Positions 1,080 through 19,806 of a stretch of 19,806 nucleotides of DNA are shown here, piece after piece. The notes below the pieces were generated by a model. The model was given only the letters and a program-made list of their open reading frames with translations. It did not search any database and had not been told where the DNA came from. The translations under genes were made by a program, and so were the position numbers. Origin of the DNA: Flavobacteriaceae bacterium (GTDB lineage Bacteria > Bacteroidota > Bacteroidia > Flavobacteriales > Flavobacteriaceae); assembly GCA_013003145.1 (NCBI GenBank), contig JABDLH010000214.1:1-19806 (forward strand), written 5' to 3'. The first letter of the stretch is position 1. Each line of letters begins with the position of its first letter.

Positions 1080-1977
1080 CTGTGAGTAATTTTTTTAATC
1101 GCTCAAATTCGTCTTTGGATCCAAAGGAAATGGTGATCTTTCCTTTTCCACGATCAGAGGCTTTGACCTGTACATCGGTCTCCAATGCTTTTTTAAAATC
1201 CTTTACACTATCTTTTGCAAAAGCAGGCAGCGTCTTTTGGGTCTTTGTTACTGTTTCTTTCTTGCCTCCTCCTTCGTGATAGGACTGAACAAGTTTTTCA
1301 GTATCCCTGACCGATAGGTTCTGGCCTACTATCTTCTCATAGATATCTATCTGGTCTTCTTTCTTTTCCACGTTGACCAGGGTACGGCCATGGCCCATGG
1401 AGATGAATCCATCGCGCATGCCTGTCTGAATGATAGGGTCTAACCTTAAAAGTCTCAGGTAATTGGTGATCGTAGAGCGTTTTTTTCCAACCCTTTCGCT
1501 GAGTTTTTCCTGGGTCAGTTGAATTTCGTCCATCAGGCGCTGGTAAGAGAGTGCGATCTCTATAGGGTCCAGGTCCTGGCGCTGGATGTTCTCTACCAAG
1601 GCCATTTCTAAGGACTCCTGGTCATTAGCGATCCGGATATAAGCAGGAATGGTCTCCATCCCGATCATCTTGGAGGCGCGATACCTGCGCTCCCCGGATA
1701 CCAACTGGTAGGTGTTGAAATCCAGTTTCCTGACCGTGATCGGCTGAATAAGACCCAGCTCCTTGATGGAGGATGCCAATTCTTCCAGGGCTTCGTCGTT
1801 GAAGTTAGAACGTGGCTGAAATGGGTTTACCTCTATACTGTCCAGTTCTAATTCCACGATATTCCCAACCAATTGGTCCGCATTCTTATCGGATACCGAT
1901 TTAATATCGTTCTCAGGGTCTTTGAGCAGAGCGGAAAGCCCTCTGCCCAACGCTTGTTTCTTGATTGCCTTCGCCAT
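1072..1977 (-). CDS. parB: Chromosome partitioning protein ParB
   Basis: ParB is the centromere-binding CTPase clamp of the ParABS chromosome segregation system. The 301-residue protein begins with the ParA-stimulating leader KQALGRGLSALL (8-18). It then has the N-terminal box IEVNPFQPR (48-56), the CTP-binding motif GERRYRA (95-101) and the ENIQRQDLDPIE segment (129-140). A helix-turn-helix (about 153-176, LTQEKLSERVGKKRSTITNY) binds parS. A C-terminal dimerisation domain follows a Lys/Gln-rich linker, and the length is normal. Its ATG shares one base with the parA stop codon (TAATG on the minus strand), so translation is probably coupled. Its 3' end overlaps the DUF5683 gene by 8 bp. No parS-like palindrome was seen in the window, so the binding sites are probably elsewhere. 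Confidence 0.97.
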   Translation of the reverse strand: MAKAIKKQALGRGLSALLKDPENDIKSVSDKNADQLVGNIVELELDSIEVNPFQPRSNFNDEALEELASSIKELGLIQPITVRKLDFNTYQLVSGERRYRASKMIGMETIPAYIRIANDQESLEMALVENIQRQDLDPIEIALSYQRLMDEIQLTQEKLSERVGKKRSTITNYLRLLRLDPIIQTGMRDGFISMGHGRTLVNVEKKEDQIDIYEKIVGQNLSVRDTEKLVQSYHEGGGKKETVTKTQKTLPAFAKDSVKDFKKALETDVQVKASDRGKGKITISFGSKDEFERLKKLLTGA

Positions 1978-2750
1978 TATACTTTCTCCTTGTTTTTCTT
2001 CAAGAGTTCACTGGCCATGTTCAGATAATTGGTCGCTCCTTTACTGGCCGCGTCATATTTGATAATAGATTCCCCGTAACTAGGTGCTTCGCCCAGTCTT
2101 ACGTTTCTCTGGATGATGGTATCAAAGACCATATCTCCAAAATGTTTCTTTACTTCTTCCACAACCTGGTTAGAGAGTCGCAAGCGCGAATCATACATGG
2201 TAAGAACCATGCCTTCTATGTCCAGGTCCGGGTTATGGATTCGCTGCACACTTTTAATGGTGTTCAGTAATTTCCCCAGGCCTTCCAGTGCAAAATATTC
2301 GCATTGGATTGGGATGATTACCGCGTCTGATGCCGTCAGGGCATTCAAGGTGAGCAGTCCTAAGGAAGGAGCGCAATCGATCAGGATATAATCGTATTGT
2401 TCCCTCAGCTGACCGATAGCTTTTTTCATCATATCTTCCCGGTCATCCTTGTCTACCAGTTCAATTTCTATCGCCACCAGGTCTATATGTGATGGGATGA
2501 GGTCTACATTGGGGGAAGAGGTCTGAATGATTGTTTCTTCGGCAGTTTTAGTATGTTCCATTAACTGGTAGGTACCCAGTTCTACTTCGTCTACGTCAAT
2601 TCCAAGTCCTGAAGTGGCATTTGCCTGGGGATCGGCGTCGATGATCAATACTTTCTGTTCTAATACACCTAGCGAAGCTGCAAGGTTCACTGTGGTGGTA
2701 GTTTTTCCAACTCCACCTTTCTGGTTGGCTATAGCAATGATCTTGCCCAT
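1977..2750 (-). CDS. parA: Chromosome partitioning ATPase ParA
   Basis: ParA is a deviant-Walker ATPase that binds the nucleoid and moves ParB-parS complexes apart. The 257 residues start directly with the ATPase core and have no N-terminal DNA-binding extension, as in chromosomal Soj/ParA. The deviant Walker A KGGVGKTT is at 11-18 with the signature lysine at 11. Switch I is DADPQANATSGLG (38-50), and Walker B/switch II is in YILIDCAPSLGLLTLNAL at about 120-137. The start is the only reasonable one, because MGKIIAIANQ is the canonical first strand. It is the first gene of the parA-parB-DUF5683-dapB operon and follows a 146-bp gap with a possible promoter. It lies downstream of mutB on the same strand, so some read-through from that operon is possible. 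Confidence 0.97.
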   Translation of the reverse strand: MGKIIAIANQKGGVGKTTTTVNLAASLGVLEQKVLIIDADPQANATSGLGIDVDEVELGTYQLMEHTKTAEETIIQTSSPNVDLIPSHIDLVAIEIELVDKDDREDMMKKAIGQLREQYDYILIDCAPSLGLLTLNALTASDAVIIPIQCEYFALEGLGKLLNTIKSVQRIHNPDLDIEGMVLTMYDSRLRLSNQVVEEVKKHFGDMVFDTIIQRNVRLGEAPSYGESIIKYDAASKGATNYLNMASELLKKNKEKV

Positions 2751-2769
2751 GTTCGTACAAGTTAGGGGT

Positions 2770-2796
2770 TAAAAATACGATTAATTAGCTTGACAA
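2770..2796 (-). promoter_or_regulatory. Possible parA operon promoter
   Basis: On the minus strand, TATTTTTA (2770-2777) matches the Bacteroidota -7 consensus TAnnTTTG at seven of eight places. A TTG (2794-2796) lies 16 bp upstream as a -33 candidate. The -7 box is 19 bp from the parA ATG. The last-base mismatch and slightly short spacing make this only a plausible call. Confidence 0.3.
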
Positions 2797-2838
2797 AAAA
2801 TGTAATTTGTTAACACTAAGTGAATAACTATTTATGCC

Positions 2839-2850
2839 ATAAGGCCTTAT
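2839..2850. repeat. 12-bp palindrome in the mutB-parA gap
   Basis: ATAAGGCCTTAT is a perfect 12-bp palindrome in the 146-bp gap between the mutB stop and parA. It has no adjoining T-run in either direction, so it is not a standard intrinsic terminator. It could be a protein-binding site or chance. Confidence 0.3.
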
Positions 2851-2896
2851 CTGCGTGCTTCCTGCAGTTGTGGGCTGATATCGCAATACTATCTTT

Positions 2897-5065
2897 TTAG
2901 TTCAGTAATTTTTCCAGGATTTCAATGGCGGCTTCACTGATACGGGTTCCCGGCCCAAAAACAGAACTCGCTCCGGCTTCTTTAAGGTAAGGGTAATCCT
3001 GCTTCGGGATTACACCTCCGACGATGACCATAATATCTTCCCGCCCGTACTTTTTTAACTCCTGTATCAGTTCCGGTACCAGGGTTTTATGTCCACCTGC
3101 AAGGGAAGATATCCCTAGGATATGTACGTCGTTCTCAACAGCCTGCCGGGCTACTTCGGTCGGAGTCTGGAAAAGGGGGCCTATATCCACATCAAAGCCA
3201 AGGTCTGCATAACCTGTTGCAATCACTTTAGCACCCCTGTCATGCCCATCCTGGCCCATCTTGGCTACCAGTATCCTGGGTCGCCTGCCTTCCAGTTCTG
3301 CAAAGCGATCAGACAATTCACGGGCTTTTTTAAATCCTTCATCTTCTGCCATTTCTTTAGAATATACTCCTGTAAATGTTTTTACTTCTGCGGTATGGCG
3401 GCCATATGCGGCCTCCAGGGCATCGCTGATCTCCCCTAAAGTAGCTCTTGCTTTGGCGGCTTTAACTGCCAGTGCCAATAGGTTGCCGGATTCCCAGTCT
3501 GCCGTTGCTGAGACGGCTGCATTCTCTTGTTTCTGTTTTGCCGCTGCTGTGATCCTGTCTAAGGCTGATCGGACTTCATCGCTATCCCGATCTTTTCTCA
3601 GGGCAGCCAATCGTTCTAATTGTTTACGTCTTACTTCCTGGTTATCGACTTCCAGGATCTGTAGTTCGTCCTCAATTTCGCGCCTGTATTTGTTGACTCC
3701 CACGATACACTCCTGCTTGCTGTCGATCTTAGCCTGTTTCCTGGCAGCAGCTTCTTCTATCCTCATCTTAGGGATTCCGGCCTCTATGGCCTTGGTCATT
3801 CCCCCTAATTCTTCCACTTCGGTCATTAAGGCTTTCGCTCTTTTACAAAGCTCATCAGTTAGAGACTCAACAAAATAACTTCCGGCCCAGGGATCAACTG
3901 TCCTTGTCATCCCGGTTTCCTGTTGCAGGAATATCTGGGTATTCCTCGCGATACGGGCAGAGAATTCACTGGGTAAGGCGATGGCTTCATCCAGCGCATT
4001 GGTATGCAGGCTTTGGGTACCGCCAAATACGGCTGCAGCTGCTTCAATGGTGGTGCGTGCCACATTGTTAAACGGATCCTGCTCGGTAAGGCTCCATCCA
4101 CTGGTCTGGCTGTGTGTGCGAAGTGCCAGTGATTTGGGGTTTTTAGGCTGAAACTGTTTCATCTCCTGTGCCCAGAGTAGCCTGGCAGCCCTGAGTTTAG
4201 CCACTTCCATAAAATGATGCATCCCGATACCCCAGAAAAAAGACAATCGCGGAGCAAATTTATCGATGTCCAGGCCTGCCTTCAGGCCCGTCTTTACATA
4301 TTCTAATCCATCTGCGAGGGTATAGGCCAGCTCCATGTCTGCCGGCGCTCCCGCTTCGTGCATGTGATATCCTGAAATACTGATGCTGTTAAATCGGGGC
4401 ATCGCCTTACTGGTATATTCAAAGATATCCGCAACCAGTTGCATGGAAGGGGTAGGGGGGTAGATGTATGTATTGCGAACCATGAATTCTTTGAGAATAT
4501 CATTCTGTATTGTTCCCGCAAGTTGCTCGGGAGAGACCCCCTGTTCCAAGGCTGCAACAATATAAAATGCCATTATGGGAATCACTGCCCCGTTCATAGT
4601 CATGGAGACAGAGATCTTATCAAGCGGAAGGCCGTCAAAAAGGATCTTCATGTCTTCTACAGAGTCTATGGCAACACCCGCTTTCCCTACATCTCCAACT
4701 ACCCTGGGGTGGTCACTGTCATACCCCCTGTGCGTTGGCAGGTCAAAGGCTACGGAGAGTCCTTTTTGCCCTGCAGCCATGTTACGACGGTAAAACGCAT
4801 TGCTTTCTTCTGCCGTACTGAAGCCTGCATACTGCCGGATGGTCCAGGGACGCTGCACGTACATCGTGGCATACGGTCCTCTCAGGTAAGGTGGGGTCCC
4901 TGCTCCGAATTCCAGGTGTTGAAGGTCCTTAAGGTCAGATTTACTGTAACACGGTTTTATGTCAATACCTTCCGCAGAGCGATAATTCTCTTGCTGCCCT
5001 TCGGCTCCGGCACTGTTTTCACTGCCATGTTCTATTGAAAGGTGCTGTATATCTTTTCTACTCAT
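2897..5065 (-). CDS. mutB: Methylmalonyl-CoA mutase large (alpha) subunit, cobalamin-binding
   Basis: MutB is the catalytic subunit that interconverts methylmalonyl-CoA and succinyl-CoA with adenosylcobalamin, linking propionate, odd-chain fatty acid and branched amino acid metabolism to the TCA cycle. The 722 residues comprise an N-terminal (beta/alpha)8 barrel with [20 protein letters not shown] (75-94, including the family's substrate-contact tyrosine) and [20 protein letters not shown] (231-250). A linker leads to a C-terminal cobalamin domain. That domain holds the base-off motif DGHDRG (606-611, DxHxxG), where H608 is the lower cobalt ligand, and continues through [16 protein letters not shown] to the C-terminus. 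Length is normal for MutB. The ATG lies inside the end of mutA (8-bp overlap), which fits production of a heterodimer. One small oddity: the position usually written YHMQEAG reads YHMHEAG here. Confidence 0.97.
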
Positions 5066-7463: not shown

Positions 7464-8537
7464 TCAGGGTTCAAAGATAATACCACTACTGGAGTCTTTC
7501 TCAGCCCCGGTTACCGAACTCAGCACATTATTTTTTCCCTCCAGTCGCATGGCTCCCATCAGGGCAAAGACCAGCGCTTCCTTATATTCAACCAGGGTGC
7601 GGTCAGGGATCACCACCTCTGCGACATCTTTGAGTTTTTCACGAAGTACATCAATCAGGAAAGGATTAAATGCGCCGCCTCCTGTGACAAGGATGCTGTT
7701 ATCCTCGTTCTTCCGGTGTTCCTTCACGGATAAGGCAACTTGCTCACAGATATGGTGGACCGAAGTATGCAGTAAGTCTTCAACCGAGTATTGGTCCGAA
7801 TCAATAATGGGGACAACTTCTTCCAGGAACCACTCGTAGCCTGTGGATTTAGGCATGGGTTGACTATAATACGGCAGATGGTTCAGCGCTTGCAATAATT
7901 CTTTTTGCAGTTTTCCTTTCCTCCCAAGTGCCCCGTCCTTATCATATTCCATCCCTACGGTAGCCGCAATATGGTTGAGGACCATATTGGCCAGGCCAAT
8001 ATCATATGCCACCCTTTTCCCGTTTTTCTCAAAAGAAATATTACTGATACCACCCAGGTTAAGACAGAATTCATAGCCCCCGAAGAAAACACGATCTCCA
8101 ATAGGAACCAGGGGAGCACCCTGCCCTCCCAGCACAACATCATAGGAGCGAAAATCAGCTATGGTACGTAGACCACTGGCATGTGCTACATTCTGACCGT
8201 AGCCCAGTTGAAAAGTGAACCCGGATTGGGGCTGGTGATGAGAGGTATGACCGTGACTAGCGATAAAATCGATATCCAATTGCTGTTCCCGTGCAAATTC
8301 AGCAGCCATCCGGCCAAGCCAGGTGCCGTATTCGTGGTGTAATTTCAACAGTCCCGTTGCAGGTAGTTGTATAGAATCCATCAGCCTGGATCTCCATTCT
8401 GCAGAATAGGAAATATTTTTACTTGCCTTAATTTCGTACTCCCAACCTTTATCATTGGAGCTAATATGGCAATAGGCAAGATCAAGACCATCCAGGGAGG
8501 TCCCTGACATCATTCCAAGAATTTTATAATTTTTCAT
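7464..8537 (-). CDS. anmK: Anhydro-N-acetylmuramic acid kinase
   Basis: AnmK opens the 1,6-anhydro ring of anhydro-MurNAc and phosphorylates it in one step, giving MurNAc-6-phosphate, the substrate of MurQ. The 357 residues show the family's ASKHA-type motifs: GMMSGTSLDGLDLAY at 8-22, IADFRSYDVVLGGQGAPLVP in the middle, then CLNLGGISNIS, AYDIGLANMVLNHIA, DKDGALGRKG, and near the C-terminus ILVTGGGAFNPFLID. Length is normal. The start codon lies within the last codons of nagZ (14-bp overlap), consistent with translational coupling. It is the final gene of the five-gene leftward recycling operon, and murQ is in the divergent unit of the same locus. The MurNAc-6-P it makes would therefore be used by a neighbour. 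Confidence 0.96.
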   Translation of the reverse strand: MKNYKILGMMSGTSLDGLDLAYCHISSNDKGWEYEIKASKNISYSAEWRSRLMDSIQLPATGLLKLHHEYGTWLGRMAAEFAREQQLDIDFIASHGHTSHHQPQSGFTFQLGYGQNVAHASGLRTIADFRSYDVVLGGQGAPLVPIGDRVFFGGYEFCLNLGGISNISFEKNGKRVAYDIGLANMVLNHIAATVGMEYDKDGALGRKGKLQKELLQALNHLPYYSQPMPKSTGYEWFLEEVVPIIDSDQYSVEDLLHTSVHHICEQVALSVKEHRKNEDNSILVTGGGAFNPFLIDVLREKLKDVAEVVIPDRTLVEYKEALVFALMGAMRLEGKNNVLSSVTGAEKDSSSGIIFEP

Positions 8538-10128
8538 TTAAGTTGTTTTTAAGGGTTACAGGAAGAATTCCGGGAGCCTGGGCTTCACCCAAAAAATATT
8601 GGGCTGCATGCTCCTGGAACGGAAGCATGTCCTGGTAAGCGACAATGACAGCTTTGGCCGAGGAGATATCCAACAGGTCCAGCACATATGGATTACCAAA
8701 AAGATAGAGTATCACGTTTCTTTCCCAGATCAAACCGTTGAGCAACTGGAGGATTTCGCGGCTGACATCAAAATTATCAGCGGGTTTTACCTTAGGAGGA
8801 TAAAGGGCTATGACCAAGGGCTTCTCGGAGTTTTCAAAATTGGTATTAGGTTGCTGATCGGATGGGTGCAGGTAAGTAATCCCGTTAACTTTAATCCCGA
8901 TCTCCCTGAAAAAAGCCGAGTCTGAATTTTTGGAAATAGCCAGGCAGTCATAACCATGCTGAGTAAGTTCATTTCTCAACCCGGGTGCTTCAAATAGGGA
9001 TGTAAGGCTTGCCGCGGCAAGTTCCCGGTTTAGTTTGGCAGGATCTGCAGGCTCCTCGAAAGATTCCGGTTGCCTGGCCATGGCTTCGGCTTTTAGATTC
9101 CAGACCCTGTTAAATGCATCATTTATAGACGTCTCAGAAGCTTTTTCCAGGATCATTTCTATGCCTTCATCCACGTGCTCTGTAAAACAAAGCACATCAT
9201 TACCGGCACTGAACGCGGCAAATTCTAATGCGCCTTTCTCCGGGTATAGCCTGGAAACTGCGTGCATATTGAGAGCGTCAGAAACAACGACACCCTGGAA
9301 TCCGAGCTCACCCCGCAAAACTTCTTTGATGATCACCGGGGATACCGTAGCGGGCATATTTTCACCCCGATCCAGGGCAGGAACCGAAAGATGTCCTACC
9401 ATGACCGAATCTACCCCTGCTGCTATCTGGGAACGAAATGGGACTAACTCCCGCTCGTCCAGAAGAGCTCTATCTGCACTGATCAAGGGTAACCCGAGAT
9501 GAGAATCCGTGGCCGTGTCTCCATGCCCGGGAAAATGTTTGGCGGATGTCAGTACGCCCCCGGCTTGCATACCTTTCATAAAGGCGGTGGATTTGCGGGC
9601 GACTAATTCTGCAGTTTCTCCGAACGATCGATAACCGATGACAGGATTATCGGGATTACAATTAACATCTGCTACCGGTGCAAAGTTCCAGTGAATTCCT
9701 TGATTGATACAATCCTGCCCAATGGCTTTCCCTGTCCTGTAAATAAGCTCATCATTATCCTGTATAGCGCCAAGTGTAATGGCATATGGATATTGAGGGG
9801 TGTCTTCTATGCGCATTGCCAGGCCCCATTCAGCATCTATACTGATCAACAGTGGAATAGATGCCGCCGCCTGGTAACGGAGAATAAGCTGTCTTAAGAC
9901 AGCGAGACTGTCTTTATTGTAATCGATCTTTTTAGCTCCTTCAAAATTGGTCGCGGCACTAGCCCTACTATGAAAGAAACAGATACCGCCTATATGCCTA
10001 TTTCGGATCAGTGCCTCAAGTTTTTGAATTTCTTCTTCCGAGTCATTGATAAAAGCGGCGGGCATAAATAATTGCCCGACCTTCTGTTCGGTGCTCAATG
10101 CGCTAATAGGTGGTAGAGTATAGGACAT
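8524..10128 (-). CDS. nagZ: Beta-N-acetylhexosaminidase NagZ, GH3, two-domain form
   Basis: NagZ removes GlcNAc from GlcNAc-anhydroMurNAc (peptides) during peptidoglycan recycling. The 534-residue protein has a GH3 barrel with SIDAEWG (96-102), the acid/base loop KHFPGHGDT (197-205) and the nucleophile in VVVSDALNM (Asp284). A second domain runs from about residue 385 to the end and has the GH3 C-terminal pattern FGNPYVLDLLD...YFLGEAQAPGILPVTL. Enterobacterial NagZ is a single domain of about 340 residues, so this form is larger. The Bacillus enzyme is also two-domain, but that one is exported. No signal peptide is visible in MSYTLPPISALSTEQK, so a cytoplasmic location is inferred, which fits an AmpG-like importer encoded 8 bp upstream. 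It overlaps anmK by 14 bp. Confidence 0.93.
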   Translation of the reverse strand: MSYTLPPISALSTEQKVGQLFMPAAFINDSEEEIQKLEALIRNRHIGGICFFHSRASAATNFEGAKKIDYNKDSLAVLRQLILRYQAAASIPLLISIDAEWGLAMRIEDTPQYPYAITLGAIQDNDELIYRTGKAIGQDCINQGIHWNFAPVADVNCNPDNPVIGYRSFGETAELVARKSTAFMKGMQAGGVLTSAKHFPGHGDTATDSHLGLPLISADRALLDERELVPFRSQIAAGVDSVMVGHLSVPALDRGENMPATVSPVIIKEVLRGELGFQGVVVSDALNMHAVSRLYPEKGALEFAAFSAGNDVLCFTEHVDEGIEMILEKASETSINDAFNRVWNLKAEAMARQPESFEEPADPAKLNRELAAASLTSLFEAPGLRNELTQHGYDCLAISKNSDSAFFREIGIKVNGITYLHPSDQQPNTNFENSEKPLVIALYPPKVKPADNFDVSREILQLLNGLIWERNVILYLFGNPYVLDLLDISSAKAVIVAYQDMLPFQEHAAQYFLGEAQAPGILPVTLKNNLNEKL

Positions 10129-10136
10129 GGTTTCTG

Positions 10137-11399
10137 TTATTCATTTGATTTTTTCCCGTAGTCATCAGGATATTTCAGGAATTTGAGCATCAGCAGTGCG
10201 GGTAGGGCGGCCAGGACCACCCAGATAAAGAAGCCGGAATATCCTAGCCACTCCTGTATATAACCGCTGATCATACCGGGTAGCATCATGCCCAGGGCCA
10301 TAAACCCCGTAGCGATGGCGTAGTGGGAAGTCTTGGAGTTTCCGTCGGCTATATAAATTAAATAGATCAGGAAAGCGGCAAAACCGAAGCCGTAGCCAAA
10401 TTGTTCCAGGACTACTGTGGCGACAATAGCGCCCATATTGGTGGTTTGTGTTACGGCCAGTATGGCGTAAAGAATGTTGGGTGCGTTCAGCGACAGTACC
10501 ATGGGCAGCATCCATTTTCGTAAACCATCACGCGAGATCAAAATCCCTCCCAGGATTCCTCCCAGGGACAACATAATGACCCCGATGGTTCCGTAGATGA
10601 TCCCGATGGCCTTGGTAGACAATCCCAGGCCACCCACTTCTGCACTGTCCAACAGGAAGGGCTGTGCCATTTTAACCAGCTGAGATTCCCCGAGCCGGTA
10701 ACATAAGATAAAACCGAGGGCCAAGCCGATCTGTGGTTTCTTAAAAAAGGAAGCAAAAACTTCCAGGAAATCTTTTGGTTTCTCGCGGTTGGGATCCGAA
10801 GCCTCGAATTTAGGAGTTACGAAGAAATTGACGATGGTCAGGAGCAGCATCAGTACTGCGGCCGAAACCATGGTGACAGACCAGGCCCTGGTATTGTCTC
10901 CCCACAACTCTTCCAGGAAGCCGGCGAGTACAACGATCAAACCACTCCCGGTAACCATGGCAAGCCTGTAAAAGGTACTGCGGATACCCACAAAAAAGGA
11001 TTGTTTTTTTTGGGTCAGGCCAATCATATAATATCCATCTGCGGCAATGTCATTGGTTGCCGAGGCAAAGGCCGCTACCCAGAAACAGGCCAGGGTGGTA
11101 ATAAAGAACTGGTTGGTAGGCAGGGTAAGACCCACACCCAGAAGCGCTAGCGAAATGAGCAGCTGCATGGCCAGGAACCATGTTCGTTTGGTGCTTTTCA
11201 GGTCGACAAAAGGACTCCACAAGGGTTTAAGGACCCAGGGTAAATAAAGCCAGCTGGTATATAGGCCTATATCCGCATTAGATATATCTAGCCTCTTGTA
11301 CATGGTGACCGATACGGTAACTATCAGTATATAGGGAATGCCCTGTGTGAAATAAAGGGTCGGGACCCAGGCCCAAGCCCGTTTATCTTTTTGAATCAT
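10137..11399 (-). CDS. AmpG-like MFS permease for muropeptides
   Basis: This is a 420-residue, highly hydrophobic major facilitator protein with about 12 membrane segments. It opens with WVPTLYFTQGIPYILIVTVS and the ADIGLYTSWLYLPWVLKPLW stretch (about 39-58). This QGIP..., then ...LPWxLKxLWxPxVD arrangement is characteristic of AmpG, the inner membrane importer of GlcNAc-anhydroMurNAc muropeptides. Further features are ASATNDIAADGYYMIGLTQK in the middle and YGFGFAAFLIYLIYIAD near the C-terminus. It is placed between the DigH-like hydrolase (17-bp overlap) and nagZ (8-bp gap), which is strong context for a muropeptide or anhydrodisaccharide substrate. Substrate choice cannot be read from the sequence, so it could import free amino sugars instead. 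The symbol is left blank because AmpG orthology is not proven. Confidence 0.85.
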   Translation of the reverse strand: MIQKDKRAWAWVPTLYFTQGIPYILIVTVSVTMYKRLDISNADIGLYTSWLYLPWVLKPLWSPFVDLKSTKRTWFLAMQLLISLALLGVGLTLPTNQFFITTLACFWVAAFASATNDIAADGYYMIGLTQKKQSFFVGIRSTFYRLAMVTGSGLIVVLAGFLEELWGDNTRAWSVTMVSAAVLMLLLTIVNFFVTPKFEASDPNREKPKDFLEVFASFFKKPQIGLALGFILCYRLGESQLVKMAQPFLLDSAEVGGLGLSTKAIGIIYGTIGVIMLSLGGILGGILISRDGLRKWMLPMVLSLNAPNILYAILAVTQTTNMGAIVATVVLEQFGYGFGFAAFLIYLIYIADGNSKTSHYAIATGFMALGMMLPGMISGYIQEWLGYSGFFIWVVLAALPALLMLKFLKYPDDYGKKSNE

Positions 11400-12918
11400 A
11401 CTGTCGACTTTGCTCTAAATGTAGAAAAATAGGTTGGCTTTCCTTTCCATAGCGATCTAAAAAGGTGATTTGGATTTTTTTCCTGCGCTTGATGCGATCG
11501 ATGGGTAGGCTAAATTGATTTTCCGAATTGATCCGGACCTTTGCCAGCAGCTCTTTGGGGGCTGGAGGTTGATTTGCTTTCTTTCTCACTGGCTTATAGA
11601 TCAAGGCATAGGTCCAGTTAGACGCTTCAAGGGGAGTGATGCTAAAGTCCAGGGAATCGCCGGAATCGCTGAACTCGATTAGGTCCGGGGTGGCGGCAGG
11701 GAAAGGTGGAGCCAATGGGGTAACCGGTGTCAAGGCCGGCAGGGGGTATATTTTCTTTTCAAATATTCTGACAAGTTCCTTTTCTGCGTTCATGAGTGAT
11801 TTGGCGCTGAAATAGGCATTACCCTGTACCGCCTTGCTATTCCTGGCATAATTGACCTGTTTTAGTAGCTCATCGTTTTGGTTCCAGGCCAGATCCGGGT
11901 TGTTCTTAACTTTGTAAGTGCCATTACCGACATAGAGATTAGACGTACTTTTATTCGCCGACCACCAATCGACAATCTTTCGGTGCGAGGCAACTTGGTA
12001 ATCCATACTCCAGTAAACCTGGGGAATCAGGTAGTCTATCCATCCCTCCTCCATCCATAATAGAGGATCGGCATACAAGTCTTCATAAGTAGTGTGCCCG
12101 GCCTGGGTATCTGAACCCCTTGGATCCGTGTCCTTGTTCTTCCATACTCCGAATGGGCTTATGCCGAACTGCACCCAGGGTTTGTGTTTTTTGATAGCCT
12201 GATGAACCTTTCTGACCAGCGAGTCTACATTACTCCTTCTCCAATCATCCAAGGTCTGGCCCGTTTTGGAATAGGTTTGGAACGCGAGGGAATCATTTAA
12301 ATTTTCCCCGGAGATCTTATAGGGGTAAAAGTAATCGTCAAAATGGATGGCATCTACCGGGTAATTGAGAACCAGTTCTTCCATGATGGCGGTAAGTTTA
12401 TCCTGCACTTCCGGTAGACCGGGGTTGTAATAGTATTTAGTACCATAGGGCAACATCCACCCGGGATTTTTCTTAAGGTCGTGCTCTTCAGCAAGGGCAA
12501 GGGTGTCCAGACTCATGGTAGCGCGGTATGGATTCAGCCAGGCATGGAATTCCAGTCCTTTTTCATGTGCTGTTGCAATCATCCATTCCAAGGGGTCCGC
12601 AACAGTGGGGGCTTTTCCTTCTTTCCCGGTCAGGTAGCGCGACCATGGCGCCAACTCGGTAGGGTAGAAAGCATCCCCGGCCGTTCGGACCTGGACGATC
12701 ACCGCGTTAAAATGGAGGTCTTTATAAAAGTCCAGAATCCGGTTAAAATCCTGTTTTTGAATTTCCCATGAAGCATTGGGGTCCTTAGGCCAGTCAATAT
12801 TAGCCACCGTAGCTATCCAGACTCCCCTGAATTCCCTTTTCGGGGCAGGGGAGGTGGTTTTAAAAATTCCGCATGAAGCCAGTGACAGTATTAACAGTAA
12901 ACCTATGGCCTGTCTCAT
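11383..12918 (-). CDS. GHL10/DUF187 family glycosyl hydrolase lipoprotein (DigH/YngK-like)
   Basis: This 511-residue predicted lipoprotein has a signal peptide (MRQAIGLLLILSLASC) with a clean lipobox LASC and Cys16 as the lipidation site. The mature part holds a GHL10 (DUF187) TIM barrel: REFRGVWIATVANIDWP (28-43), WLNPYRA (126-132), YYNPGLPEVQDKL, AIHFDDYFYPY (189-199) and GISPFGVWKN. A C-terminal beta-rich, fibronectin-like portion starts at about residue 405 after a proline-rich stretch. E. coli DigH (YddW) of this family cleaves denuded peptidoglycan glycan strands at the septum. Position between nagB and the AmpG-like gene suggests the same kind of job, making importable sugar fragments in the periplasm, but substrate is inferred. 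It overlaps the permease gene by 17 bp and follows nagB after 56 bp. Confidence 0.88.
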   Translation of the reverse strand: MRQAIGLLLILSLASCGIFKTTSPAPKREFRGVWIATVANIDWPKDPNASWEIQKQDFNRILDFYKDLHFNAVIVQVRTAGDAFYPTELAPWSRYLTGKEGKAPTVADPLEWMIATAHEKGLEFHAWLNPYRATMSLDTLALAEEHDLKKNPGWMLPYGTKYYYNPGLPEVQDKLTAIMEELVLNYPVDAIHFDDYFYPYKISGENLNDSLAFQTYSKTGQTLDDWRRSNVDSLVRKVHQAIKKHKPWVQFGISPFGVWKNKDTDPRGSDTQAGHTTYEDLYADPLLWMEEGWIDYLIPQVYWSMDYQVASHRKIVDWWSANKSTSNLYVGNGTYKVKNNPDLAWNQNDELLKQVNYARNSKAVQGNAYFSAKSLMNAEKELVRIFEKKIYPLPALTPVTPLAPPFPAATPDLIEFSDSGDSLDFSITPLEASNWTYALIYKPVRKKANQPPAPKELLAKVRINSENQFSLPIDRIKRRKKIQITFLDRYGKESQPIFLHLEQSRQYDSKR

Positions 12919-12974: not shown

Positions 12975-14924
12975 TCATTGAAAATGATAGCGAACAAAAC
13001 CTTCCATAGCTTCATACTCTGCCAGTCCAAGGGCGTTGTACCGTCGGGCAGTCTCCTTGTTCCTCTGTTCCGCCCTTTGCCAGAATTCACGTTCGTCATT
13101 TCCGGGGAACATGGCACTGTCTTTCTGGGATTGGTGCTTAAATATTGCGTTCTTCTTGCGCTCCATGTCTTTTGGGCCTATAGGGATGGCCATTTCCATG
13201 TCAGCGATATCCCATTCCTGCCAGGCACCACGGTATAGCCATACATAGCAATCAGAGAGCCATTCCGCCTCTTCTTTCACCAAGCGATCCAGTGCAGCAT
13301 AGATCACCTGGAGGCATACCCTGTGGGTTCCGTGTGGGTCTGATAAATCCCCAGCTGCAAATATCTGGTGTGGCTGTATCTCCTGTAACAGGTCGTAAGT
13401 AATCTGTATATCTTCTTCCGTATAAGGTTTTTTCTTTACGGTTCCAGTTTCGTAAAACGGCAAATTCTGGAAATGGGCATTAGCCTCTTTTACCCCGCAA
13501 TAGCGACAAGCCGCCAGGGCCTCTCCTTTCCTGATTAATCCTTTAAATTTTTGGATCTCCGGGCTATCTACCTGTCCCGGTGTTTTACTGCTAAGGAATT
13601 CTCGGACTTCCCGGAATTGTTTTTTCAAGGTCTCGTTCTGTTCCTGTATATCCGTGGCAAAATCTAAAAATCGGATCACTTCGTCATCAAAGACCGCAAT
13701 ATTTCCTGAAGTCTGATAGGCGACATGCACATTGTGTCCCTGATCTACAAGCCTCAGCAGTGTACCACCCATGGATATTACATCGTCGTCGGGGTGGGGG
13801 CTGAAAACCAGCGATCGTTTGGGGTAGGGATCTTTTCGTTCCGGGCGCCTGCTATCATCAGCATTGGGCTTACCACCCGGCCATCCGGTAATGGTGCTTT
13901 GTAATTGGTTAAAGACCCTGAGGTTGATATCCTCTGCAGAGCCGATCTCCGCCACCAGGTTCCCCATACCGTATTCGTTATAATCCTCGTTGGTAAGCTT
14001 TAAAATGGCTTTGTCCAGTTTAAGAGACAGCCAGATGGTGGCTTTTTTGATGAGGTTGTCATCCCATTCGCATTCGCTGACCAACCAGGGGGTGTTCAGG
14101 CGGGTAAGGGATGATGCAGCTGCATGATCCAGGATAAAGTCACAGTTGTTATGGTGCTGCAAGAAGGTAGCCGGCACCGATTCTCGGATTTCGCCCTCAA
14201 CGGCTTGCCTGATAATATCGGATTTTCCTTCACCCCATGCCATCAGGACAATTCTCTTGGCACTCATTATAGTGCCTACCCCCATGGTGATCGCTTTAGA
14301 GGGAACATTTTCCAGGCCAAAGAAATCACTTGCGGCGTCCAGGCGCGTCACCCGGTCCAGTCTGACCATCCTGGTCTTACTGTTGATAGAAGAGCCCGGT
14401 TCATTGAACCCCACGTGGCCGGTCCGGCCAATCCCGAGGATTTGTATATCTATTCCACCTTCGTCCTTGATCTTCTTTTCATATGCCTCGCAGAAATCCC
14501 TGACGTCTTCCTTATCCAGGGTGCCGTCAGGTATATGAATGTTCGATTTCTTAATGTCTATATGATCAAAAAGATGCTCGTTCATAAACCGGACGTAACT
14601 GTGAATAGAATCCGGCTCCATAGGATAATACTCATCCAGGTTAAAGGTGATCACGTTCTTAAAGCTAAGCCCTTCTTCCTTGTGGAATTTGACCAAAAAA
14701 TCATACATCTTGGTAGGGGTAGAACCTGTAGCAAGTCCTAACACCACGTTTTTTCCGAGTTTCTGGCGCTGCCGGATCAGTTCGGCTATCTCGTTGGCCA
14801 CGTAAAATGACGCTTCTTCCGAATTGTCGTGGATATGAGTGTCTATTTTTTCAAATTTCCGCGATTCCTCATCTGTAGGATATCCGGGGATTCGGGGTCT
14901 GGTTTGCAAATCGGCCATGATCAA
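12975..14924 (-). CDS. nagB: Glucosamine-6-phosphate deaminase fused to LmbE/PIG-L deacetylase domain
   Basis: The 649-residue protein joins two enzymes. Residues ~35-285 are a NagB isomerase-deaminase: GLATGSTPTKMYDF (63-76, phosphate loop), NLDEYY (95-100, Asp97 matching the E. coli catalytic Asp72) and GIGRTGHVGFNEPGSS (164-179). In E. coli the last motif reads GVGNDGH, so the Asp141 position is Thr168 here, while the His (170) and Glu (175) are kept. Residues ~368-640 are a LmbE/PIG-L metal-dependent N-deacetylase with FSPHPDDD (374-381) and DPHGTH (529-534) as zinc ligands. The NagB half would give fructose-6-P from GlcN-6-P. The LmbE half could supply GlcN-6-P by deacetylating GlcNAc-6-P, which would replace NagA; this is inference. 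It heads the leftward recycling operon. M1 is taken as start, though M3 is equally possible. Confidence 0.92.
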   Translation of the reverse strand: MIMADLQTRPRIPGYPTDEESRKFEKIDTHIHDNSEEASFYVANEIAELIRQRQKLGKNVVLGLATGSTPTKMYDFLVKFHKEEGLSFKNVITFNLDEYYPMEPDSIHSYVRFMNEHLFDHIDIKKSNIHIPDGTLDKEDVRDFCEAYEKKIKDEGGIDIQILGIGRTGHVGFNEPGSSINSKTRMVRLDRVTRLDAASDFFGLENVPSKAITMGVGTIMSAKRIVLMAWGEGKSDIIRQAVEGEIRESVPATFLQHHNNCDFILDHAAASSLTRLNTPWLVSECEWDDNLIKKATIWLSLKLDKAILKLTNEDYNEYGMGNLVAEIGSAEDINLRVFNQLQSTITGWPGGKPNADDSRRPERKDPYPKRSLVFSPHPDDDVISMGGTLLRLVDQGHNVHVAYQTSGNIAVFDDEVIRFLDFATDIQEQNETLKKQFREVREFLSSKTPGQVDSPEIQKFKGLIRKGEALAACRYCGVKEANAHFQNLPFYETGTVKKKPYTEEDIQITYDLLQEIQPHQIFAAGDLSDPHGTHRVCLQVIYAALDRLVKEEAEWLSDCYVWLYRGAWQEWDIADMEMAIPIGPKDMERKKNAIFKHQSQKDSAMFPGNDEREFWQRAEQRNKETARRYNALGLAEYEAMEGFVRYHFQ

Positions 14925-15076: not shown

Positions 15077-15826
15077 ATGCTAAAAGAAGAGAGACAATTA
15101 AAGATCTTATACGAGGTAGAATTGCATAACCGTGTTCTGCTATCGGACATCGCAGAAATGCTGGATGTATCCGTAGATACTATCCGCAGGGATGTAAAAG
15201 AGCTGGATGCGGAGAATAAATTAAAGAAAGTACATGGTGGAGCAATCTCTATGGGTTTTACAGATCCCACCGCGGATAATTCCAAGATTTACGCCTTAAA
15301 CGAGAAGAGCATTATCGCCCAGAAAGCCATAGGCCTCCTGAAAGACGGAGCAGTGATCTTTATAGATGGAGGAACTACTTGCCTGGAACTGGCCCGGCAG
15401 ATACCGAGGCAGCTACACCTTACCTGCTTTACCCTGAGTCTCCCGGTTGCCCTGCAATTACTGACCAAGCCCAACATCGAGGTAATCTTCCTCGGCGGAA
15501 CGATCTCCCGCGAGGCCCAAATATCCGTGGGTGCCAGCGCTATCCACCAACTATCGGAAATTAGGGTGGATTACGGTTTTATCGGGACCGGGTACGTGGA
15601 TGCGCTACATGGGCTGACCGAGTTTGACTGGGACATCGTCCAGGTTAAAAAAGGAGTCATACAGGCGTCTAAAAAAACGGTACTTTTATGCATCTCGGAA
15701 AAGCTTAATTCGCAACACCGATATAAGACCTGCAACATCAATGCAATTAACACGATGATCACTGAGCTGGAACCGGAAAACAACCTGCTTAATATGTTCA
15801 GGAAACACGAAATACACCTGCTATAA
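15077..15826 (+). CDS. DeoR/GlpR family transcriptional regulator
   Basis: This is a 249-residue DeoR-type repressor. The N-terminal winged helix-turn-helix (about 3-58) shows KEERQLKIL, then LSDIAEMLDVSVDTIRRDVK and the wing KLKKVHGGAI. The C-terminal sugar-phosphate sensing domain, an ISOCOT-type fold related to NagB and RpiA, has IDGGTTCLELARQIP (96-110) as its phosphate loop and FLGGTISREAQISVG downstream. Family members respond to phosphorylated sugars. Because it is divergent from the nagB operon and 1 bp upstream of murQ, GlcNAc-6-P, MurNAc-6-P or GlcN-6-P is the likely effector (inference). It probably controls both units and itself through the repeats at 14941-15047. Its exact target set cannot be read from sequence. 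Confidence 0.93.
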   Translation: MLKEERQLKILYEVELHNRVLLSDIAEMLDVSVDTIRRDVKELDAENKLKKVHGGAISMGFTDPTADNSKIYALNEKSIIAQKAIGLLKDGAVIFIDGGTTCLELARQIPRQLHLTCFTLSLPVALQLLTKPNIEVIFLGGTISREAQISVGASAIHQLSEIRVDYGFIGTGYVDALHGLTEFDWDIVQVKKGVIQASKKTVLLCISEKLNSQHRYKTCNINAINTMITELEPENNLLNMFRKHEIHLL

Positions 15827-15827
15827 T

Positions 15828-16643
15828 ATGTCAGATTACCATAAAATTACTGAATCGCCTTCCCGATACGATCATTTAGAGCAAATGGAGACGGGAGAAA
15901 TCCTGGAAAATATTAACCAGGAAGACCGCGAAGTTGCCGATGCCGTTGCCTTGGCCATTCCCCAGATCACTAAACTGGTAGATGGGTTGGAAGAACGCTT
16001 CTATAAAGGAGGCAGGTTGTTTTATATCGGTGCCGGCACCAGCGGACGGCTTGGTATCCTGGATGCATCCGAGATCCCGCCTACCTTCGGAATGCCTCAT
16101 AACAGGGTGATTGGACTGATTGCAGGTGGAGATGGCGCGATCAGGAAAGCGGTGGAATTTGCCGAAGATAATACCGAGCAGGCATGGAAAGACCTGCAGG
16201 CCCACCAGATCACCCCCCTGGACACCGTGGTAGGAATTGCGGCATCGGGAACCACCCCCTATGTTCTTGGAGGTGTAAAGACGGCTCGTGAAAATGGGTT
16301 GCTTACTGCGGGGATCACCAATAACCCCGGTTCTCCCTTAGCCGGTGTAGTAGAGATTCCTATCGAGATCAATGTAGGCCCCGAATTTGTAACGGGAAGT
16401 ACCCGTATGAAAAGTGGAACCTCCCAGAAACTTGCGTTGAATATGATTTCCACTGCCCTTATGATCAGGATAGGTAGGGTTAAAGGAAATAAGATGGTAA
16501 ACATGCAGCTCAGCAATGACAAGCTCGTAGACCGTGGTACGAGGTACCTCATGGAAGGCCTGCACCTGGATTACCAGGAAGCCCAGGATGTTTTAAAGAA
16601 ATACGGATCTGTACAAAAAGCGATGGAAGCTTACGGCAAGTAA
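15828..16643 (+). CDS. murQ: N-acetylmuramic acid 6-phosphate etherase
   Basis: MurQ splits the lactyl ether of MurNAc-6-P to give GlcNAc-6-P and D-lactate, the joining step between AnmK and the amino sugar route. The 271-residue protein has a SIS fold: YIGAGTSGRLGILDASEIPP (66-85), with Glu82 matching the known catalytic Glu83 of E. coli. AVEFAEDNTEQAW follows, where Glu113 matches E. coli Glu114. Then come GIAASGTTPYVLGG and NVGPEFVTGSTRMKSGTSQK. The C-terminus LDYQEAQDVLKKYGSVQKAM looks like the short helical UBA-like end of the family. It is somewhat shorter than the ~300 residues of E. coli MurQ but no motif is missing. It starts 1 bp after the deoR stop, so the two are one transcript, and it ends 1 bp from the convergent cytochrome gene. 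Confidence 0.97.
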   Translation: MSDYHKITESPSRYDHLEQMETGEILENINQEDREVADAVALAIPQITKLVDGLEERFYKGGRLFYIGAGTSGRLGILDASEIPPTFGMPHNRVIGLIAGGDGAIRKAVEFAEDNTEQAWKDLQAHQITPLDTVVGIAASGTTPYVLGGVKTARENGLLTAGITNNPGSPLAGVVEIPIEINVGPEFVTGSTRMKSGTSQKLALNMISTALMIRIGRVKGNKMVNMQLSNDKLVDRGTRYLMEGLHLDYQEAQDVLKKYGSVQKAMEAYGK

Positions 16644-18304: not shown

Positions 18305-19806
18305 ATGCTCCCAAGTAACTCGAGGCGGGACGTATTTGTCATCTTTCTGACACTGATGTCATTGGCATTTACTTTTGCCGGAACCAACCCAGGTAGCTCC
18401 GACCCCATAAATGGGGACCGGGTTTCCTACACAGAGCTTACTGCCTATGCCAGCAGTAGGTTTGACCTCTCACCGGATCATACCGATACCGAGATCACCG
18501 TAACACCACTGCCTTTCTTCTATGCCACCATTATCCAGAATGCCGATGAGGAAGTAAATTGTCCCAACGACGGAAGCACCTTGGCCAAATTCTTTCTATG
18601 CGGTACCAGTGACGTCCGAACGATAAGCTTAAGCCAGAGTGGGAGTAGCTACGAATGGCAGAAATTGGATAGTAACCGTTGTGCCACATCGGTCATGGCC
18701 GACTGTGCCAATACAGATAGCAGCTGTTATGATACCGTGGGAGTGGGATCCACGTATAACCTGAATTCCTCCGGGGAGTTTCGTGTCCGCATAGATGGCG
18801 GACAGTACTATTATTTTAAATCTACACTCAATCCACTTGATCCACAACTCATCAAAGAAGATATTATCTGCGGGAACCCGGGTAGGGTAGAGGTGACCAA
18901 TGTACCTGCAGGGTATGAATACAGCCTTAACAATAGCGCAGGTCCTTACCAGGATACCCCGTATTTTGATATTACAACTGCCGGGGATTATAAAGTGTGG
19001 GTACGATTGAAGAATGTATCCAGTACTGCATGTCTTTTTCCCTCCAATACGGTTACTGTTGCCAGCCTGGATTTAAGCGCTTCAGTTACTGCAAACGATA
19101 TCTTGTGTAGCGGTGAACTGGGGAGCATAGATGTGACTGTTTCCGGTGTGCCGGGATTCTTTACCTACAGGCTGCTGAAAAATGGAGTGACCGTAGATAC
19201 TTTTGGTCCGGATTCGGCCAGTTCTTACAGCTTTGAGAATGTGAGCCCCGGAACCTACAGTGTAAGGGTAGCGACCAATAAATGTAATGAGGTCATTACC
19301 ACAGACGTAAATAATGATCCCATCCGTATTGGGAACGGGATAAGCCCGCTTGCAGTTTCTGCATCGGCCTCGGACAGTTTTGGCTGTGGTGCATCTTCAG
19401 TGGATGTTCGTATAGAGACTTCAGGAGGAACTGCGCCCTATCGCTATAGCCTTGATGGTGGCAGTAGCTTCAGTGCTACGTATAATAGCAGTACCGTATT
19501 TACCGTAAGTTCGGCCGGCACCTATAATATATTGGTAGAGGATGCCAATGGCTGTACCAAGACGGCAAGTACCGATGTTGAAGACCTTCCGCCACCGGTG
19601 TATACCGTTTCTTCTGATGATGCTACCTGTGGTAGCAGTAATGACGGTAGAATCACTTTTAATGTGAGTAATGGTTACGGGTACCAGATGACCTATAGTA
19701 TCAATAACGGTGCATCATACCAAAACAACAATATTTTTAACGGTCTTGCACCGGGAACCTACCAGGTACTCATCCGGTACCAGCAAGGAGCATTTAGTTG
19801 TACCAC
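18305..19806 (+). CDS. Large secreted SprB-repeat protein, 3' end outside window
   Basis: The 500 complete codons seen here start MLPSNSRRDVFVIFLTLMSL, a signal peptide ending near FAG at about residue 26. An in-frame TAA two codons before the ATG fixes this as the first possible start. Residues ~40-175 form a Cys-containing N-terminal region with no repeats (EEVNCPNDGSTLAKFFLCG and three further Cys). From about residue 185 there are four SprB-like repeats: roughly 187-245, 265-330, 358-418 and 438-500. Each has a Cys-Gly or Cys-Ser start, a YxYSL or YRYSL turn and an AGTY/PGTY-x-V strand before the next Cys. This is the pattern of gliding-motility adhesin SprB and related proteins exported by type IX secretion. 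Its sorting domain would be at the missing C-terminus. The function, adhesion or gliding, is inferred; no Shine-Dalgarno is apparent. Confidence 0.88.
   Translation, partial: MLPSNSRRDVFVIFLTLMSLAFTFAGTNPGSSDPINGDRVSYTELTAYASSRFDLSPDHTDTEITVTPLPFFYATIIQNADEEVNCPNDGSTLAKFFLCGTSDVRTISLSQSGSSYEWQKLDSNRCATSVMADCANTDSSCYDTVGVGSTYNLNSSGEFRVRIDGGQYYYFKSTLNPLDPQLIKEDIICGNPGRVEVTNVPAGYEYSLNNSAGPYQDTPYFDITTAGDYKVWVRLKNVSSTACLFPSNTVTVASLDLSASVTANDILCSGELGSIDVTVSGVPGFFTYRLLKNGVTVDTFGPDSASSYSFENVSPGTYSVRVATNKCNEVITTDVNNDPIRIGNGISPLAVSASASDSFGCGASSVDVRIETSGGTAPYRYSLDGGSSFSATYNSSTVFTVSSAGTYNILVEDANGCTKTASTDVEDLPPPVYTVSSDDATCGSSNDGRITFNVSNGYGYQMTYSINNGASYQNNNIFNGLAPGTYQVLIRYQQGAFSCT

Follow-up and report, generated by a model that had tools for sequence, protein, structure and literature searches.

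A catalogued NagB-LmbE fusion of Bacteroidota as a candidate bifunctional enzyme of GlcNAc-6-P catabolism

The NagA-NagB pathway relies on a deacetylase of the amidohydrolase family, NagA (TIGR00221), and on the deaminase NagB (TIGR00502). In F. johnsoniae, the authors of one study assigned the deacetylase step to NagA (Fjoh_3974); the deletion of the chitin-locus nagB, which may be fused or unfused, is reported to have had no effect on growth on chitin, the expression of its product in E. coli failed, and three further nagB-like genes are mentioned (PMC5127042). LmbE proteins and a NagA appear as separate genes in another study (PMC5901876). Among LmbE-like enzymes, TkDAC deacetylates GlcNAc2, and BshB is described with His12, Asp15 and His113 as metal ligands and Asp14 as a catalytic residue, Asp112 of its HPDH motif being also listed as catalytically important (PMC4101496). 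No paper that connects LmbE domains with GlcNAc-6-P or NagB, or that proposes an LmbE half in place of NagA, was found in the open-access literature, in a search that scarcely covered subscription papers. Proteins that carry both domains are catalogued as NCBIfam NF002557/PRK02122 ("glucosamine-6-phosphate deaminase-like protein"), a family whose name covers the NagB half only and in which the LmbE half is given no function.

We studied such a protein in a window of 19,806 nucleotides from a Flavobacteriaceae bacterium (contig JABDLH010000214.1; Table 1). An earlier note on this window had described a NagB protein with a C-terminal LmbE/PIG-L domain and had suggested that it could be a two-step enzyme in place of NagA. 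The first part of this description is borne out by both Pfam domains and by a score of 1078.8 bits to NF002557, and the strand, which the note did not give, is the minus strand.

The fusion protein and its two halves

The likelier start of the fusion is the ATG at 14918, two codons into the open reading frame, which would give a protein of 647 aa; the copies fetched from two genomes of the same genus (G001 and G003) begin there too. Both Glucosamine_iso (35-259) and PIG-L (372-544) are above the gathering score, and in the profile search the window protein covers positions 20-652 of the 653 of NF002557/PRK02122. The fusion is real, but it has been seen before, since it is a strong member of this catalogued family. 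At least 8000 proteins match the window protein with an E value of 1e-30 or lower; among the matches listed, the top one (97% identical) comes from Zeaxanthinibacter enoshimensis, and all 120 have both Pfam domains. The linker between the halves contains a stretch (TITGWPGGKP) which is kept in close relatives and absent from the most distant relatives aligned, as well as from the split form described below.

Table 1. Features of the window related to the NagB-LmbE fusion and its neighbours
Feature	Coordinates	Strand	Remarks
NagB-LmbE fusion ORF	12975..14924	minus	649 aa from TTG; NCBIfam NF002557 1078.8 bits, cut-off 384
NagB half, residues 35-259, PF01182	14148..14822	minus	D97, H170, E175 and K234 present
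Linker, residues 260-371	13812..14147	minus	no Pfam domain of its own
PIG-L/LmbE half, residues 372-544, PF02585	13293..13811	minus	H377, D379, D380, H531, H534
GHL10 glycosyl-hydrolase-like protein	11383..12918	minus	PF02638; next downstream of the fusion
AmpG-like muropeptide transporter	10137..11399	minus	TIGR00901 195.8 bits, below the cut-off of 350
NagZ-like GH3 beta-N-acetylhexosaminidase	8524..10128	minus	PRK05337 150 bits, below the cut-off of 207; GH3 domain above its own cut-off
AnmK, anhydro-MurNAc kinase	7464..8537	minus	NF007144 505.5 bits, cut-off 436
DeoR-family regulator	15077..15826	plus	Pfam; divergent from the fusion
MurQ, MurNAc-6-P etherase (makes GlcNAc-6-P)	15828..16643	plus	NF003915 366.6 bits, cut-off 168

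The NagB half scores above the cut-offs of both TIGR00502 (260.9 vs 236.9 bits) and PF01182 (83.1 vs 27). Its D97, H170 and E175 align with the solved NagB chains and are at what we take to be the catalytic Asp, His and Glu positions of NagB; T168 sits where chain 2bkv, presumably the B. subtilis NagB, has an Asn. The conservation of both active sites was followed in 176 rows, which were drawn from the matches listed and are thus biased to high scores; four same-copy rows were removed and the window copy is present twice (P0001 and L008). With this double counting, the three NagB residues are retained in 172 of the 176 rows. In two copies (L063, at 1477-3465, and L136), Tyr and Asn stand in the place of the catalytic Asp and His of NagB, but the LmbE residues are kept; nagA was not found in the genomes concerned, and these are possibly deacetylase-only copies.

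The LmbE half reaches 67.6 bits to PF02585 (gathering cut-off, 28.2). Its H377, D379, D380, H531 and H534 align with His12, Asp14, Asp15, His110 and His113 of BshB, and the positions that the earlier note had given for the HPDDD motif (377-381) and for H531 and H534 were confirmed in the window protein. The second motif is HGTH, vs HPDH in BshB, so that Asp112 of BshB corresponds to Thr533, a residue that does not vary among 36 aligned members. The five key residues of this half are all retained in 168 of the 176 rows (the window copy again counted twice), at identities down to 47%. The eight rows that have lost some of them comprise 5 of the 52 copies with nagA in the genome vs 3 of the 124 without it (p = 0.05, the copies not being independent). 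In the first 120 rows this damage appeared confined to genomes with nagA, a rule that was broken by 60 further loci, where paralogs in G164 and G175 and the copy of G200 are damaged and nagA was not found; the sole fusion match of G200 has H531N. The loss of LmbE residues is hence not clearly tied to the presence of nagA.

A separate BshB1 was found in 32 of the 34 genomes searched, three near-complete congeners among them. Since these congeners have their own BshB1, bacillithiol should not need the LmbE half, and this role was rejected. Most of the 34 genomes encode an additional LmbE-domain ORF of ~820-890 aa besides BshB1, as at G000:C296.

Gene neighbourhood and distribution of nagA

The layout of the window, in which the fusion and DeoR-MurQ are divergently oriented and GHL10, AmpG, NagZ and AnmK follow the fusion, is common to five genera: it is kept in G001 and G002, of the same genus (the G002 contig ends at GHL10), and in G013, G019, G026 and G032, of four others. 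The GHL10 protein has a lipoprotein-like start and stays beside the fusion in several genera. The far end of the window (18305-19804) holds the start of a long protein cut by the window end, with an SprB repeat match of 34.6 bits over the whole protein and no single stretch passing. Neighbourhoods were also compared among 50 fusion loci, the highest-scoring of the order and phylum lists, window included, with flanks of 1.5 kb. A GlcNAc/MurNAc enzyme lies at most 1.5 kb away in 27 of them, a count for which there is no random-locus control: GH20 in 14, MurQ in nine, and NamZ, AnmK, a BadF-type kinase and NagA in one each. Examples of GH20, SusD, NamZ and BadF neighbours were confirmed by Pfam, and 14 of the 50 loci lack every one of the markers.

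The earlier note had also stated that no nagA-like gene is in the window and had called for a search of the full genome. Nothing on the window contig matches TIGR00221, and the weak matches of the same genome, five in all, are on other contigs; the genome-wide search gave nothing above 35.5 bits in this genome (68% complete) or in three congeners (99-100%), and the nagA genes of the order sample score 199-309 bits. Within an incomplete genome and three more complete relatives, the search that the earlier note had called for thus favours its suggestion. When 80 fusion genomes were searched with another NagA profile, the four expected positives were the sole matches. The fusion itself shows no homology to the amidohydrolase-type NagA, TIGR00221 being absent from its family matches. 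Concerning sensitivity, a B. subtilis control genome had no match at E 1e-25, which points to a possible gap in the search; a B. subtilis NagA sequence, however, scores 602 bits, and the first search, that of the order sample, picked up proteins scoring as little as 20 bits in its genomes.

The order sample consists of 60 genomes, that of the window and 59 others with a completeness of 90% or more. Of these 60 genomes, 29 have the fusion above cut-off; nagA is present in seven, every one a fusion genome, and was not found in the remaining 22 fusion genomes, including all three near-complete congeners. In the phylum sample (296 genomes), NF002557 is above cut-off in 125 genomes and nagA was called in 52; the two coincide in 30, which leaves 95 fusion genomes where nagA was not found. 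Some of the nagA calls are below the TIGR00221 cut-off: four of the seven are above it in the order sample (G004, G016 and G031 are below, at 199-218 bits), as are 44 of the 52 in the phylum sample, where the threshold was E 1e-25. Since these weaker matches were counted as nagA, the count works against a replacement of NagA by the fusion. As the genomes are related, none of these numbers represent independent events. Among the genomes whose only NagB is unfused and bona fide, 18 of 27 have nagA. This set was reduced from 41 genomes by keeping those with a NagB above 200 bits; the matches of the 14 that were removed belong to another family, mostly of ~790 aa, and three of these genomes also have a match of ~115-120 bits. 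Members of this divergent family (L182:631-2973, L184:589-2961 and others) resemble the fusion in the C-terminal part of NagB and the linker, with a weak PIG-L match in L182. The two that were aligned have HHDD and a Glu instead of H531 and have lost the NagB Glu175; the family may be an old, altered relative.

In the order sample, the presence of nagA goes together with that of a second NagB. Of the nagA genomes, 7/7 have a NagB-like gene that is separate from the fusion and scores over 95 bits, vs 2/22 of the fusion genomes where nagA was not found (Fisher p 2e-5, kinship ignored); with a threshold of 50 bits, the latter become 6/22 (p 0.001, kinship again ignored). The distance between nagA and this separate gene is 1.3-9.1 kb in five of the seven genomes, and some of the genes concerned could be of the GalNAc type (aga). 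The other two genomes, G043 and G055, belong to one genus, and their fusion lacks residues of both active sites. At another locus (L091:7231-9995), an unfused NagB directly precedes a fusion with residues lost in both active sites, in a genome with nagA. In G125, nagA precedes the fusion on the same strand, at a distance of 50 nt, and this fusion has its LmbE residues intact. In G272, by contrast with the fused form, the halves are separate genes on one strand, 23 nt apart (from the first start codon), with motifs in each, and nagA was not found. The combination of halves that are fused in many genomes and adjacent in G272 is the usual sign of two proteins acting in one pathway.

Within the order sample, 24 of the 50 murQ genomes (for instance G007, G009 and G010) have neither the fusion nor nagA, and three of the 29 fusion genomes have no murQ above cut-off. 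No NagB-like match above 40 bits was obtained in those 24 genomes, which may therefore lack the whole route. MurQ alone is, however, no proof that a deacetylase exists. Most LmbE proteins of these 24 genomes are BshB1 and the ~820-890 aa protein; a few of the genomes have additional small ones, and no LmbE protein was found in G058. With regard to a biosynthetic role of NagB, most genomes of one search have GlmS-sized matches, a class assigned by ORF length and matched region only. The earlier note had reasoned that the GlcNAc-6-P made by MurQ needs deacetylation before NagB can act. The need for NagA is weaker than it sounds, because the fusion and nagA coexist in 30/125 genomes and 24/50 murQ genomes have neither.

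Candidate function and alternative explanations

We consider it probable that the fusion is a bifunctional GlcNAc-6-P deacetylase/GlcN-6-P deaminase, in which a non-homologous replacement of NagA is fused to NagB. According to this proposal, AmpG, NagZ, AnmK and MurQ of the cluster would deliver GlcNAc-6-P; the LmbE half would bind a metal ion via H377, D380 and H534 and take the acetyl group off; the NagB half would convert the resulting GlcN-6-P to Fru-6-P and ammonia, and the intermediate may be channelled between the halves. The two-step enzyme imagined in the earlier note thus fits the distribution, the neighbourhood and the split form, while the deacetylation of GlcNAc-6-P is a step that we, too, infer, and the 30 genomes of the phylum sample that have both nagA and the fusion speak against a simple replacement. 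The proposal is also favoured by the company of nagA and a separate NagB, by the retention of the key LmbE residues, by the deacetylases among the solved relatives of the LmbE half and by the separate BshB1 of the congeners. Further points against it are the intact LmbE residues next to nagA in G125, the murQ genomes with neither gene, the fusion genomes with no murQ above cut-off, the H531N copy of G200 and the F. johnsoniae nagB deletion. The broader proposal, that NagA has been replaced across much of Bacteroidota by a NagB-fused LmbE deacetylase, which possibly passes GlcN-6-P from one site to the other, and that this is the main route for peptidoglycan recycling and chitin-derived GlcNAc, has about an even chance of being correct.

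Several other explanations have to be considered. In clusters of the MurQ type, the sugar comes already phosphorylated, as GlcNAc-6-P. If the LmbE half, like Dac, deacetylated a sugar that carries no phosphate (chitobiose or free GlcNAc) and a kinase then provided GlcN-6-P for the NagB half, the GlcNAc-6-P made by MurQ would be left unused. This is nevertheless the main rival, because in the profile comparison the solved proteins nearest to the LmbE half are diacetylchitobiose deacetylases (8bgn and 3we7 groups), and the GH20 genes adjoining 14/50 fusion loci would also suit it; we regard it as unlikely. Another possibility is that the LmbE half acts on a different amino-sugar conjugate, or is regulatory, and that GlcNAc-6-P is deacetylated by an enzyme encoded elsewhere. 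The murQ genomes with neither gene and the genomes with nagA alongside the fusion could be understood in this way. Yet the former, which have no NagB-like match above 40 bits, may simply lack the route, and the frequent presence of a separate BshB1 takes away one such conjugate, so that we find this explanation rather improbable. Finally, the eight rows with damaged LmbE residues might suggest that this half is inert or structural and that NagB works alone. The retention of all five residues in the other 168 rows, even among quite divergent copies, and the two copies that lost NagB residues yet keep those of LmbE make this very hard to believe.

If the fusion is indeed a GlcNAc-6-P deacetylase/GlcN-6-P deaminase, it would explain how cell-wall sugars are recycled without the usual deacetylase in many Bacteroidota and fill a gap in GlcNAc catabolism across much of a phylum with a large turnover of chitin and cell-wall sugar. 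The LmbE family would gain a new reaction, and it would become apparent which seemingly nagA-less genomes can still use GlcNAc-6-P.

Comparison with known systems

The full-length architecture of NF002557/PRK02122 is identical to that of the window fusion, from which it has no structural difference. BshB1 is similar to the LmbE half in being LmbE-like, with an HxDD motif and aligned metal His, but the fusion scores 26.8 bits to TIGR04001 (cut-off, 182.5) and has HGTH in the place of the HPDH of BshB. The profile alignment with the diacetylchitobiose deacetylases is limited to roughly the first 52 residues of the LmbE half, and their solved chains (267-272 aa) are unfused, whereas the LmbE half of the window is fused to NagB. 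The NagA-NagB pathway carries out the same two-step chemistry that is proposed here for the fusion; the difference is that the deacetylase would belong to the LmbE family, unrelated to NagA, and would be fused to NagB.
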